DNA of 54,688 bases from assembly GCA_015067075.1 (NCBI GenBank), contig SVND01000010.1, positions 1 to 54,688 on the forward strand, in the 5' to 3' direction. The stretch comes from Oscillospiraceae bacterium (GTDB lineage Bacteria > Bacillota > Clostridia > Oscillospirales > SIG530). The position numbers and the translations under genes were made by a program. Positions within the stretch are counted from its first letter, which is position 1, and each line of letters starts with the position of its first letter. The notes below the pieces were generated by a model, which worked only from the letters and a program-made list of their open reading frames with translations, ran no database searches and had not been told where the DNA came from. Shown in pieces: positions 1-39,367 of the stretch.

Positions 1-946
1 TCCCATTTTCAAGGTGTGTCGTCAGCTCACGCATTGCTATATCGGGGTCTTGCCCTGCGTAAAACTGAGCATCCTCTGCGGAAATGCTCTCGTATCCTGC
101 ACGCGGCTCTATCACATACCTTGCATAATGCACCATGCCATCACCATTTACCCAAACATATGTATTCGGTGTATATCCGTTCATTTTGATATAACTTTTT
201 TGCGTTCCTTCGTTTGAATAAAGCCGCATGAGTGCCTGTGTCATTTCAGGCGTATCTGCCGCAAGAGCCATAAGACGTTCGCTGTCACGTATACCGTTTT
301 TGCCGGACGGCGACATGGCGTGCACAAGCTCCGTCAGCTTTTCACCGTCTCTTATGAAAAACACAGGTGTGCTTAAAGCTAAAATATCATAGATACCGTC
401 TTTTGTGTCAAGCTTTATTTCCATCATTCGCACATCGCGCGCCGTATCTGCACCGCCTCGCGATTGGAACATTGGCGCAAATCGCACGTACACACTCGTT
501 TCCTTGCCTTTTTCCGACAAAAAATCAGCCATTGTATAATCGCGCATACATTCACTTGCCGTAAATTTGCCGAACGCGCCAATTCCCTTTGCGCCCAGCG
601 CGCGCTCCGCTCTTTTCTCTTGCGCAAGTGCTCCCAGCTTTTCCATGAGCCAAAGCTCACTTTTCACTTCCTCTCGCTCCTGCACCATAGGCTTTTCTTC
701 CTCTTTCGGTGCTGTTTGCGGAATTACGGGTATGATCTGCTCCAGCGGATACATGGGCTCGTAATCTCCCTCATCGTTTTTTACGTCTTCCCTTTCATTT
801 TCCGCAACGTACGGCATTTCGATCTCTTCATTTTTATCTTTCTCTTTTGCTTCCATCTGCTCCGATGCAAAGGGAGAAATTCGGAATTTCCTCGTGCCGT
901 AATTTCTTTCGTATCCGCCTGCGCGGTTTCCAGCTCCACTTATCAT
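1..946 (-). CDS. Catalase-fold protein lacking the catalytic His and Asn (C-terminus beyond window)
   Basis: An open frame runs unbroken from the start codon to the left edge (about 315 residues visible). After an acidic, low-complexity stretch of roughly 95 residues it follows the catalase family closely: ERALGAKGIGAFGKF (res. 114-128) aligns with the catalase ERVVHAKGAGAYGTF block, then the VRF and GGADTARD blocks, then STPVFFIRD (192-200), and AEDAQFYAGQDPDIAMREL near the edge. The active-site His of catalases is Gly118 here, and the conserved Asn pair before TPxFF is Leu-Ser (191-192). Haem catalysis as in true catalases is therefore unlikely; the haem-ligand Tyr would lie outside the window. 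Two ATGs compete (952 and 946); 946 is preferred because AAAGGA lies about 8 bases upstream of it but only 2-3 from the other. It is divergent from corA. The family call is by eye; function unknown. Confidence 0.82.
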   Translation of the reverse strand, partial: MISGAGNRAGGYERNYGTRKFRISPFASEQMEAKEKDKNEEIEMPYVAENEREDVKNDEGDYEPMYPLEQIIPVIPQTAPKEEEKPMVQEREEVKSELWLMEKLGALAQEKRAERALGAKGIGAFGKFTASECMRDYTMADFLSEKGKETSVYVRFAPMFQSRGGADTARDVRMMEIKLDTKDGIYDILALSTPVFFIRDGEKLTELVHAMSPSGKNGIRDSERLMALAADTPEMTQALMRLYSNEGTQKSYIKMNGYTPNTYVWVNGDGMVHYARYVIEPRAGYESISAEDAQFYAGQDPDIAMRELTTHLENG

Positions 947-974
947 ATACATTTTCCTTTCTGAAAAAAAACTC

Positions 975-1003
975 TTGCAAATATACGACAAATAAGGTAT
1001 AAT
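975..1003 (+). promoter_or_regulatory. Promoter of the corA leader transcript
   Basis: TTGCAA at 975-980 and TATAAT at 998-1003 are separated by exactly 17 bases, so transcription should start near 1010 and leave an untranslated leader of about 190 bases before corA. The -35 lies in a 9-base inverted repeat (ACTCTTGCA at 972-980, TGCAAGAGT at 1036-1044) that also brackets the start region of the divergent catalase-like gene. Confidence 0.7.
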
Positions 1004-1082
1004 ATCAAAGTATACTTATTCGCTCTTATATTGTATGCAAGAGTGTTTAAAAGTATGAATTTTTGAAAGGAGTTGGATCTTT

Positions 1083-1157
1083 GTGAGTCCTGACCCTGCT
1101 GGGCCTCGATTATGGAGGAAATTTTGCCTTAACCGGCAAGAAATCAAAATTTTATAA
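1083..1157 (+). CDS. Candidate 24-codon leader peptide upstream of corA (MgtL-like start)
   Basis: A GTG codon at 1083 follows AAGGAG (1067-1072) by 10 bases and opens a 24-codon frame ending in TAA at 1155-1157, 43 bases before corA. The peptide begins M-S-P-D-P-A-G-P and continues R-L-W-R-K-F. Enterobacterial MgtL peptides likewise start with an acidic/proline run (M-E-P-D-P-T-P) followed by an Arg-rich stretch; there low Mg2+ destabilises ribosomes on that run and switches on mgtA. Here the downstream gene is a Mg2+ channel. The start codon is weak and the spacing slightly long, so translation is inferred rather than certain. No other sensible frame in the leader uses this ribosome binding site. 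Confidence 0.55.
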   Translation: MSPDPAGPRLWRKFCLNRQEIKIL

Positions 1158-1200
1158 CGCAGGACGGCTTACAGTGCAGGCGTCCTGCTGAAAGGAGCAG
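1087..1200 (+). promoter_or_regulatory. Competing RNA structures controlling the corA ribosome binding site
   Basis: Four segments can pair alternatively. Segment 1 is GTCCTG (1087-1092, inside leader codons 2-4), segment 2 GCAGGACG (1159-1166, just after the leader stop), segment 3 CGTCCTGC (1181-1188), segment 4 AGCAG (1196-1200, overlapping the corA AAAGGAG). 2:3 gives an 8-bp hairpin; 3:4 (CTGCT/AGCAG, loop GAAAGG) hides the ribosome binding site; 1:2 repeats the 2:3 pairing. A further stem (AAATTTTGCC with GGCAA) lies in the leader coding part. The pairings are read from the sequence; the switch mechanism is inferred. Confidence 0.55.
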
Positions 1201-2148
1201 ATGCCTGTGATCAGCTTTTTCAAAACAGTAAACGGTAGAATCGCACCTATCGATACTTATGAAAGCGGCTGTTGGATCAACGTGGTTTCACCTACCGAAA
1301 GCGAAATGTCACTGCTTACAGATGAGCTGAAGATCGACGGCGGTTTTATCAAATCAGGTCTTGACGAGGAAGAAGTTTCCCGTATCGAATCTGATGAAGG
1401 TCAAACGCTTATCATCTTCGACATTCCCATTGCACAAAGCAGTCAGACCGGTAACACGACCTACAGCACACTTCCTATGGGCGTTATCATTGCCCATGAT
1501 TTTTTCATCACCGTCGCCTCCCGTGAGCACGCGCTCATCAAAGAATTTTCCGACGGTATCGTAAAAAACGTCGAAACGTCGCGCCAGATGCACTTTTTGC
1601 TCATGTTGCTTTTAAAAGCTTCAGGTAAGTACCTGGCTTACCTTCGTCAGATCGACAAGCTTTCCACCTACGTTGAAAAGCAGCTTTATAAAGCAATGAA
1701 AAACAAGGAGCTTATTCAGCTTTTGGAAATGGTAAAATCCCTTGTTTACTTTTCCACTTCCCTTAAAGCCGTTGAAGTAACGCTCAACAAAATACAGCGC
1801 AGCCGTTACATTCCCTTGGACGAAGAGGATGCTGACCTGCTTGAGGACGTTATCGTCGAAATTAAGCAGGCTATTGAGATGGCGACTATCTATTCGGGAA
1901 TTCTTTCAGGTACGATGGATGCTTTTGCCTCCGTTATTTCAAATAACCTTAACATCGTCATGCGTGTTTTGGCTTCCATTACCATAATTATGGCTGTGCC
2001 CACTATCGTGTTCAGCTTTTACGGCATGAATACACCGCTTCCCCTGCAAGGCTCGCCTATCCTCGGTTTATGGTACGTGCCTTTAGGTATCGCCATTATA
2101 GCAACTGTAATATGTGCAATCGTTCTTAAAAAGAAAAATATGTTTTAA
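1201..2148 (+). CDS. corA: CorA-family magnesium transporter
   Basis: CorA proteins form pentameric inner-membrane channels for Mg2+ (also Co2+/Ni2+). The 315-residue length is typical. A long soluble alpha/beta plus helical N-terminal region is followed by two C-terminal membrane helices (about 250-270 and 290-310), with the diagnostic selectivity motif YGMN at 274-277 between them and a basic KKKNMF tail. Two starts are possible: ATG at 1201, only 3 bases after AGGAG, and GTG at 1207, 9 bases after it. The GTG start gives an N-terminus beginning MISFFKTV, like many Firmicute homologues, and is probably the real one. The gene is monocistronic, behind a long structured leader with a candidate leader peptide, and ends at a strong terminator. 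Confidence 0.93.
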   Translation: MPVISFFKTVNGRIAPIDTYESGCWINVVSPTESEMSLLTDELKIDGGFIKSGLDEEEVSRIESDEGQTLIIFDIPIAQSSQTGNTTYSTLPMGVIIAHDFFITVASREHALIKEFSDGIVKNVETSRQMHFLLMLLLKASGKYLAYLRQIDKLSTYVEKQLYKAMKNKELIQLLEMVKSLVYFSTSLKAVEVTLNKIQRSRYIPLDEEDADLLEDVIVEIKQAIEMATIYSGILSGTMDAFASVISNNLNIVMRVLASITIIMAVPTIVFSFYGMNTPLPLQGSPILGLWYVPLGIAIIATVICAIVLKKKNMF

Positions 2149-2159
2149 GAAAAATTTAT

Positions 2160-2200
2160 AATCCCCCTAAAGTTTAAGACTACTTTAGGGGGATTGTTTT
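2160..2200 (+). terminator. Terminator after corA
   Basis: ATCCCCCTAAAGT (2161-2173) pairs with ACTTTAGGGGGAT and is followed by TGTTTT. It lies between convergent genes and may serve both. Confidence 0.85.
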
Positions 2201-2236
2201 AATGATAATAATATCTCACAAGAACAAGGAATTTTT

Positions 2237-3013
2237 TTAGTTTACACCCACAAGAATAATTATTGCAAATCTTGAGCCGTCACCGTGCTCGTGCGTTGCA
2301 GCGGCAATACCTATTTTCGATCTATCGCTGTCAACGTATTTAGTGATATACTGTCCTTGGGACTTTGCCGCTTTGTTTGAAAGAGTCGTGAGCACCGTTT
2401 CAGAGTCAGCGTAATTGCTGTACCAAACGCTGTAAGTAAAGCCTGATGCCTTGCCCGTATAGCCTGTCGTCTTCATGAGAGAGGAAACTCTTTCGCCGTT
2501 TGGAAGCGTCATAAAATCGGTATTAGCTCTGAAATCAACGCCGCCTTCATAAAGCGCGTCAGCATATGCGGCGGCTATTTTATCAAGGCCTTCACTTCGT
2601 GATATCTCGCCTTTTCCGAGCTTTGCTCTTTCGCCGTTGATATTAAGCAAAATTGCATTTTCAGCTTCCGCATCATGTGTAAGGGCAGATTCAACGCTCG
2701 GCGTACCCGTAGGCTCGTCAGGAGCAGGTGTTTCCGTTACAGCAGGCGTTTCCGTCGGAGTTTCTGTCGGCACTTGTGTCGGCGTTGCAACCTCAACAGG
2801 TGTTGGCGTTGCAGGCACGTCTGTGGGTGTTGCAGGTACATCCGTCGGCGTTGCGGGCACGTCTGTAGGTGTTACAGCTTCCGTCGGAGTCGCGACAGGT
2901 GTAGGTGTCGGATTCGGTGTGCTCGTTCCTCTTTCAACAGCGACAAGTGCAAATATAAGTAAAACAAATATTAAAATTAAACCTGCTAAAATAAGATAAG
3001 GTCTTGCTTTCAT
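2237..3013 (-). CDS. Membrane-anchored CAP/SCP-like domain protein with Thr-Pro linker
   Basis: The 258-residue protein starts with one uncleaved-looking membrane helix (about 6-28). A long Thr/Pro-rich linker follows (about 30-100), containing three perfect copies of TDVPATP. The C-terminal domain (about 112-258) opens with AILLNINGERAKLGKGEI and contains DKIAAAYADAL, resembling the first helices of the bacterial CAP (SCP/PR1) fold, and ends with a hydrophobic FAIIILVGVN strand. CAP domains are extracellular with varied or unknown roles; the His/Glu cluster cannot be placed with confidence. The AAAGGAGC site lies just upstream of the ATG, with TTGAAA-17-TATAAT before it. It is divergent from spoIIGA. 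The anchor and linker are clear; the CAP call is moderate. Confidence 0.7.
   Translation of the reverse strand: MKARPYLILAGLILIFVLLIFALVAVERGTSTPNPTPTPVATPTEAVTPTDVPATPTDVPATPTDVPATPTPVEVATPTQVPTETPTETPAVTETPAPDEPTGTPSVESALTHDAEAENAILLNINGERAKLGKGEISRSEGLDKIAAAYADALYEGGVDFRANTDFMTLPNGERVSSLMKTTGYTGKASGFTYSVWYSNYADSETVLTTLSNKAAKSQGQYITKYVDSDRSKIGIAAATHEHGDGSRFAIIILVGVN
2808..2870 (-). repeat. Three tandem 21-bp repeats coding for TDVPATP
   Basis: Three in-frame 21-base units at 2808-2828, 2829-2849 and 2850-2870 differ only at a few mostly synonymous positions. They extend the proline-rich spacer of the CAP-like protein and could vary in number between strains. Confidence 0.85.
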
Positions 3014-12799: not shown

Positions 12800-13080
12800 T
12801 TGCGGCTCATGTAAAATAAAAGGCTCGTTCATCCAATACATGGGACGAAAGAGCCTTGTCATTCCGCGGTACCACCCAGCTTTTGCGCTTTTTGCGCAAC
12901 ACCTTCGGCGAAGCTATAACGTGCTTCATTCGTCATATCCTGAGCCGTGCTTCGGATATGCAGCTCCAAAGTGAACTTCACAACGCTGTATGCGATGACT
13001 GCTTTCAGCCTCAGGCCGTCACTCTCTTTACGCATATATTCAGCAAAGCTACTCTCTTTTTCATTGCCTTTGTATTAAGT
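12800..13080 (-). promoter_or_regulatory. T-box riboswitch, tRNA-Phe specific, controlling pheST
   Basis: On the minus strand the conserved T-box sequence GGGTGGTACCGCG (within 12861-12880) is followed by a terminator (12811-12856: AGGCTC pairing with GAGCCT, then TTTTATTTT). Upstream, stem I contains GAAGTTCACTTTGG with TTC (complement of 12973-12975) as the specifier, a Phe codon followed by the usual A. Uncharged tRNA-Phe would pair with both sites and block termination. This fits the pheST genes downstream. Confidence 0.95.
12811..12856 (-). terminator. T-box regulated terminator
   Basis: Minus-strand AGGCTCTTTCGTCC pairs with GGATGAACGAGCCT (short internal mismatch) and is followed by TTTTATTTT. 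The T-box sequence lies just upstream and supplies the antiterminator. Confidence 0.85.
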
Positions 13081-39227: not shown

Positions 39228-39245
39228 ATAGAAAAATTCAATACT

Positions 39246-39367
39246 TCGGGGCAGGGTGAAATTCCCGATCGGCGGTGCAGTCCGCGAGCGCTTTTGCGCA
39301 GAACCGAGCCAAGCTTTTGCTTGTAATACGGTACCGACAGTTAAAGTCTGGATGAAAGAAGAAACGT
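39246..39367 (+). promoter_or_regulatory. FMN riboswitch (RFN element)
   Basis: The conserved RFN blocks are present in order: GGGGCAGGGTGAAATTCCCG, GGCGGTGCAGTCCGCGAGCG, then CCGACAGTTAAAGTCTGGATG and AAAGAAGAAACG. The segment between holds a variable hairpin. It would sense FMN and turn off the following riboflavin transporter gene through the downstream terminator. Confidence 0.97.

Follow-up and report, generated by a model that had tools for sequence, protein, structure and literature searches.

A conserved x-D-P leader peptide upstream of corA in Clostridia, probably an MgtL/MgtQ-like magnesium attenuator

In E. coli and Salmonella, the short leader peptide MgtL precedes mgtA, which encodes a Mg2+ transporter of the P-type ATPase class, and control proceeds by Rho-dependent termination within a long leader that contains a three-way junction. 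Ribosomes drop off MgtL at the residues EPDP in a Mg2+-dependent manner, and an EttA toeprint was found at Pro3 (PMC11282234). The Salmonella mgtQ leader of mgtB forms the stems 1:2 and 3:4 or, alternatively, 2:3; a ribosome that stalls or aborts on its acidic short frame covers region 1, and 2:3 then replaces 1:2 and 3:4, freeing the ribosome binding site of the Mg2+ transporter gene (PMC8092293). Mg2+-responsive upstream short frames that control corA are also known, namely the enterobacterial CorL (PMC11552253) and the 'corA motif' (PMC6429828); they are found in Gammaproteobacteria only, are Rho-dependent and contain few acidic or Pro residues. Stalling at Asp-Pro was also described in B. 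subtilis (PMC11381351). The M-box (RF00380) is an aptamer without a peptide, through which Firmicutes control mgtE, corA or Nramp genes in response to Mg2+. An M-box accompanied by an unrelated upstream frame has been reported from mycobacteria. To our knowledge, and also in the literature that we found, Mg2+ sensing by ribosome instability is known from Enterobacteria only. An earlier note on the present DNA had stated that no MgtL-type leader is known to have been described in Clostridia. A literature search, covering mostly openly available journal papers, found neither a Gram-positive MgtL nor a clostridial corA leader; the novelty of the clostridial leader is provisional.

The stretch of DNA that was analysed (the window) comprises 54,688 bp of a contig of an Oscillospiraceae bacterium (GenBank accession no. 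SVND01000010.1). It contains a frame of 24 codons, GTG to TAA, at bp 1083–1157 of the forward strand (MSPDPAGPRLWRKFCLNRQEIKIL), encoding a peptide of 24 aa. The frame is preceded by its own Shine-Dalgarno (SD) sequence AAAGGAG (bp 1066–1072), 10 nt before the GTG. The codons CCT GAC CCT (bp 1089–1097) encode P3-D4-P5, the proposed ribosome-destabilising motif. The next gene in the same orientation, corA (bp 1207–2148), encodes a CorA-type Mg2+ channel (PF01544, E 9e-47), confirming that a 24-residue frame with its own ribosome site lies ahead of corA. The gene has a second AAAGGAG as its SD (bp 1191–1197), and the stop codon of the leader lies approximately 50 nt from it. The corA frame reaches back to an ATG at bp 1201; however, the GTG at bp 1207 is more likely to be the start, because the homologues begin there. 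A possible sigma-70 promoter (TTGCAA-17-TATAAT, bp 975–1003, forward strand) is a consensus match alone, and the number of such matches was not above chance. In the Rfam search the leader matched no family beyond chance, permissive thresholds included; elsewhere in the window a T-box leader (bp 12838–13073, reverse strand) and an FMN riboswitch (bp 39238–39367, forward strand) were present.

Conservation of the frame was investigated in the regions upstream of 100 related corA genes, whose proteins were as a rule 45–57% identical, by scoring short, closed frames with an SD and a start that begin with M-x-x-[D/E]-P. This pattern was present in 67 of the 100 regions, compared to none of the 100 when their reverse strand was read and 0.4 in shuffles, which bears out the view in the earlier note that the resemblance to MgtL is hard to ascribe to chance. 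In about a third of the corA set of the order, such a leader was looked for and not found. Examples of the peptides are MNPDPAGNHR, MSPDPGNPRS, MTADPCGKR, MKADPCGHS, MSADPGSRR, MSSDPWSRKR and MSPEPGSRQ. Carriers are numerous among gut Clostridia, and those in culture include Anaerotruncus colihominis (L071, MNPDPGSTGY) and Acetanaerobacterium elongatum (L035, MSPDPGNPRS).

The leaders were thinned to 51 non-redundant ones before codon statistics were calculated. Codon 4 encoded an acidic residue in all 51 (D in 48, E in 3) and codon 5 encoded P in 50. Codon 3 was more variable (P in 31, A in 12; A, S or G in approximately 35–40%), and because P3 is often replaced by A, D4-P5 is the core of the motif. 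All 799 one-base pairwise differences at codon 5 were synonymous and all differences at codon 4, including those from D to E, were at the third base; these counts ignore phylogeny and are descriptive. No stop was found in the first 12 codons of the 51 leaders in frame, against 48 and 37 of the 51 in the other two frames. The SD of the leader frame was retained at this place in the relatives. Two outcomes that would have spoken against a peptide, a frame that is broken while the RNA is kept and a frame that drifts freely, were looked for in the relatives and neither occurred; frame, SD and P-D-P were all retained, with drift at the third codon positions. This comparison shows selection at the protein level on the leader frame with its SD and on the x-D-P motif of codons 3–5. 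The basic residues after the motif, previously noted as a special feature, did not hold up: K and R made up 24% of codons 8–19 in frame, without clear enrichment over the two other frames of the 51 leaders (17% and 22%).

Two further regularities were seen in the leaders. Codon 7 is with few exceptions either GGG, which gives CCC-NNNN-GGG, or AGT (codons 5–7; in the window, for instance, bp 1094–1103). In addition, R-P-stop or A-P-stop is a frequent ending among leaders with a stop that overlaps the anti-SD arm (e.g. L038, L064, L067, L070 and L093); this could reflect an RNA constraint or a termination pause.

A model based on sequence alone and spanning 42 nt about the start of the leader was run against 197 whole genomes of the order to which the window belongs, an order of the Clostridia near the Oscillospiraceae. 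It gave 27 hits in 27 genomes, one in each, and all 27 were located directly upstream of corA. Part of the loci scanned had also been used to train the model (six of the genomes directly, and others through identical contigs), so what is informative is that the rest of these genomes gave no hits. When the scan was widened to the class (391 genomes) and the phylum (299), 11 hits outside the order were obtained at E<=0.02, of which 7 were at corA, mgtE, Nramp or the start of a CNNM protein: three before corA, two before mgtE (L135 and L156), one before Nramp (L158) and one at the CNNM/CorC protein's own start (L159); four were unexplained. A survey of 30 Nramp loci revealed no leader besides the one in L158, so that Nramp is a single case.

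In a survey of the CorA and MgtE genes of 148 genomes of the class, the strict pattern was found before 11 of 81 corA genes and 3 of 79 mgtE genes, and before none of either on the reverse strand. Leaders found in these genomes include MDADPGEKR, MDCDPGG, MDTDPYPN and MDIDPYPN before corA, and MDYDPLP, MDSDPLP and MDYPDPLP before mgtE. The acidic residue 2 is usually missing in the order of the window and is frequent, as D2, in other Clostridia. The identical motif is encoded by different nucleotides in the mgtE leaders and the other corA leaders. Comparison thus ties the leader to corA and, in other Clostridia, also to other Mg2+ transport genes.

Seven leaders, before mgtE, Nramp or corA, were located directly 3' of a same-strand M-box riboswitch (L156, L158, L206, L209, L234, L260 and L262), six of them at 63–82 nt past the aptamer. 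In these Clostridia or related Bacillota the M-box is always the upstream element, and two-stage Mg2+ control is possible; such tandems would mean that the riboswitch acts as the first stage and translation as the second. Within the order of the window, 10 of the 197 genomes contained an M-box, and these did not overlap with the 27 that gave a leader hit. No match to RF00380 was present in the window leader or anywhere in its genome (2.26 Mb), in which no MgtE, Nramp of this kind or MgtA was found above the curated cut-off either. The like peptides before mgtE and Nramp and 3' of M-box riboswitches strengthen the proposed link to Mg2+.

The individual leader folds showed a single plan. Stem A:B pairs the SD, start and codons 2–5 of the leader frame with a segment approximately 40–65 nt downstream, stem C:D is predicted to hide the corA SD, and B is also complementary to C. 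In the window, region A (bp 1081–1092, forward strand, as are all following features) contains the start codon and codons 2–3 and forms the 5' arm of stem P1 (A:B). Region B (bp 1159–1174) is the partner of A or, via GCAGGACGGCT (bp 1159–1169), of region C, the anti-SD AGGCGTCCTGC (bp 1178–1188); these B:C arms are 91% complementary. Region C otherwise forms the 5' part of stem P2 (C:D, bp 1176–1209), in which bp 1176–1189 pair with bp 1196–1209 and which would hide the corA SD and the GTG at bp 1207. Because a structure alignment yielded no consensus for the most divergent leaders, the pairings were tested in each locus separately. In 58 loci A:B, B:C and C:D were each stronger than shuffles of their own sequence (p 5e-10, 3e-11 and 5e-10, respectively), and A:B and B:C were also stronger than pairings with partners drawn from different loci. 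In all 58 loci the B arm was common to these two pairings. In an alignable group of nine, A:B contained two pairs with changes on both sides, with 99% of cells paired, and B:C contained three such pairs, for which shuffle support was weaker. The mgtE, Nramp and other corA leaders showed the identical stem plan.

To follow the possible effect of translation, a ribosome footprint was stepped codon by codon over the 58 leaders in a simulation, with the accessibility of the corA SD and start as readout. A simple comparison of an early-bound with a stop-bound ribosome showed no difference in corA start accessibility. In the stepwise simulation, accessibility peaked with codon 3 in the P-site (mean gain 0.11, with increases in 33 loci and decreases in 8; codons 2–4 best), a position that we liken to the EttA toeprint on MgtL, also at Pro3 (PMC11282234). 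The gain was gone by codon 9, accessibility fell below that of the free state at codons 12–15, and it rose again at codons 20–23 as the footprint neared C. In the window, the equilibrium fold keeps P2 with the ribosome on A and B:C only increases from 0.00 to 0.11, so the computed switching is weak and a switch would need co-transcriptional folding.

We consider it quite probable, from these comparisons and folds, that the frame is a regulatory leader peptide of an MgtL/MgtQ-like attenuator, the sensing of Mg2+ and the direction of the response being inferred. In such a translational attenuator the sensor would be the Mg2+ dependence of the ribosome itself. Stem A:B would hide the leader start and C:D the corA SD and start, with the competing B:C freeing the corA SD. 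At ample Mg2+, ribosomes would pass P-D-P and run through B as far as the stop, after which A:B and C:D would re-form and corA would stay low. At scarce Mg2+ they would pause or drop off at codons 3–5 while occupying A; B would be left free to pair with C, the corA ribosome site would open and the channel would be made. The leader is thus probably a magnesium gauge that is new to Gram-positive bacteria.

Other readings of the conserved frame have to be weighed against this attenuator. Some CorA proteins transport other divalent metals, and the leader might be a genuine regulator of corA that responds through its D-P pause to another signal, such as charged tRNA-Pro, EF-P or ABCF activity, or another metal carried by CorA. 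Asp-Pro indeed stalls ribosomes in B. subtilis without EF-P (PMC11381351) and Salmonella mgtP senses tRNA-Pro (PMC8092293); however, the variability of codon 3 beside the constant D4 and P5 fits acidic drop-off better than proline counting, and like leaders occur before mgtE and Nramp and 3' of Mg2+ riboswitches. We therefore regard this reading as unlikely. Translational coupling, with finishing ribosomes melting P2 and re-initiating on corA, would make the leader a constitutive or growth-rate-linked enhancer. The leader stop is at most 25 nt from the corA start in about one third of 71 loci and the second rise in accessibility, at codons 20–23, is what coupling would give, but the greater distance in the window, and up to approximately 146 nt in other loci, does not suit it and the fixed D-P at codons 4–5 is not accounted for by coupling alone; we give this reading little credence.

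The leader RNA is highly structured (z -3.3 and -4.0) and codons 2–5 lie in stem A:B, as would be the case if what is conserved were an RNA element such as a metal riboswitch, with an incidental frame. This seems highly improbable in view of the codon-periodic conservation, the D to E changes at the third base, the open frame, the occurrence of the same motif in different nucleotides in mgtE and other corA leaders, and the lack of an Rfam match for the window leader. A riboswitch-only reading was rejected on codon periodicity.

The MgtL-like reading in the earlier note is supported by the conservation and by the Mg2+ genes, with two corrections: the core is D4-P5, and the architecture is nearer to that of mgtQ/mgtB than to that of the Rho-dependent mgtL/mgtA. 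As in MgtL-type systems, a short SD-bearing frame lies upstream of a Mg2+ transporter gene and an acidic/Pro motif within codons 2–5 is kept as amino acids. P3, D4 and P5 occupy positions matching those in the M-E-P-D-P of MgtL, and a drop-off or pause at them is proposed by analogy. In contrast to the three-way junction, Rho termination and mgtA gene of the enterobacterial MgtL family, a short A:B/C:D/B:C leader was found here before corA, mgtE or Nramp, the predicted output is exposure of the ribosome site, and most leaders in the order of the window lack E2. The exclusive stems 1:2/3:4 versus 2:3 of mgtQ, with the ribosome binding site in region 4, have their counterpart here, the ON form being weak at equilibrium in the window. 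MgtQ itself differs in having 8 aa, in lying between two operon genes, in its peptide and in not requiring Pro (PMC8092293), and no sequence relation of the leader to MgtQ was seen.

The leader would work like MgtL and MgtQ, probably by analogy rather than by descent. Its likeness to the enterobacterial MgtL peptide is confined to codons 3–5 of a very short peptide, and an independent origin is more likely than common descent. We lean towards the view that leader peptides of the forms M-x-[P/A]-D-P and M-D-x-D-P, which would sense Mg2+ and destabilise the ribosome, arose independently in the Bacillota as a family of their own. This family would serve the unrelated CorA, MgtE and Nramp proteins, act by exposing the ribosome site, and have replaced the M-box in some lineages while standing in series with it in others. 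If such a leader did evolve again in Clostridia, with the same codons and unrelated transporters, P-D-P near the start of a frame would be a general gauge of Mg2+ that is made of the ribosome itself.

Two proteins of the CNNM/CorC type carry a similar motif at their own start, MDPDPNG (L151, bp 194–1522, reverse strand) and MNADPGSQ (L159, bp 1516–2871, forward strand), and several others start with MDPDS, MDSDS or MSDDP. In a survey of 30 CNNM loci, most lacked the exact MDPDP or MNADP start of these two. An N-terminal ribosome-destabilising stretch was reported for E. coli CorC (PMC12421838), and by analogy exporters may use the destabilising motif in reverse.

Divergent from corA, bp 2–991 of the window (reverse strand) encode a protein with a catalase domain (PF00199), truncated by the window edge. 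Between this gene and corA lies a long, imperfect AT-rich palindrome (bp 967–979 and 1036–1048, spanning bp 967–1048), which overlies the likely promoters. Partial copies of the palindrome, approximately 78–82% identical over 37–41 nt with weak E-values, are present elsewhere in the genome.
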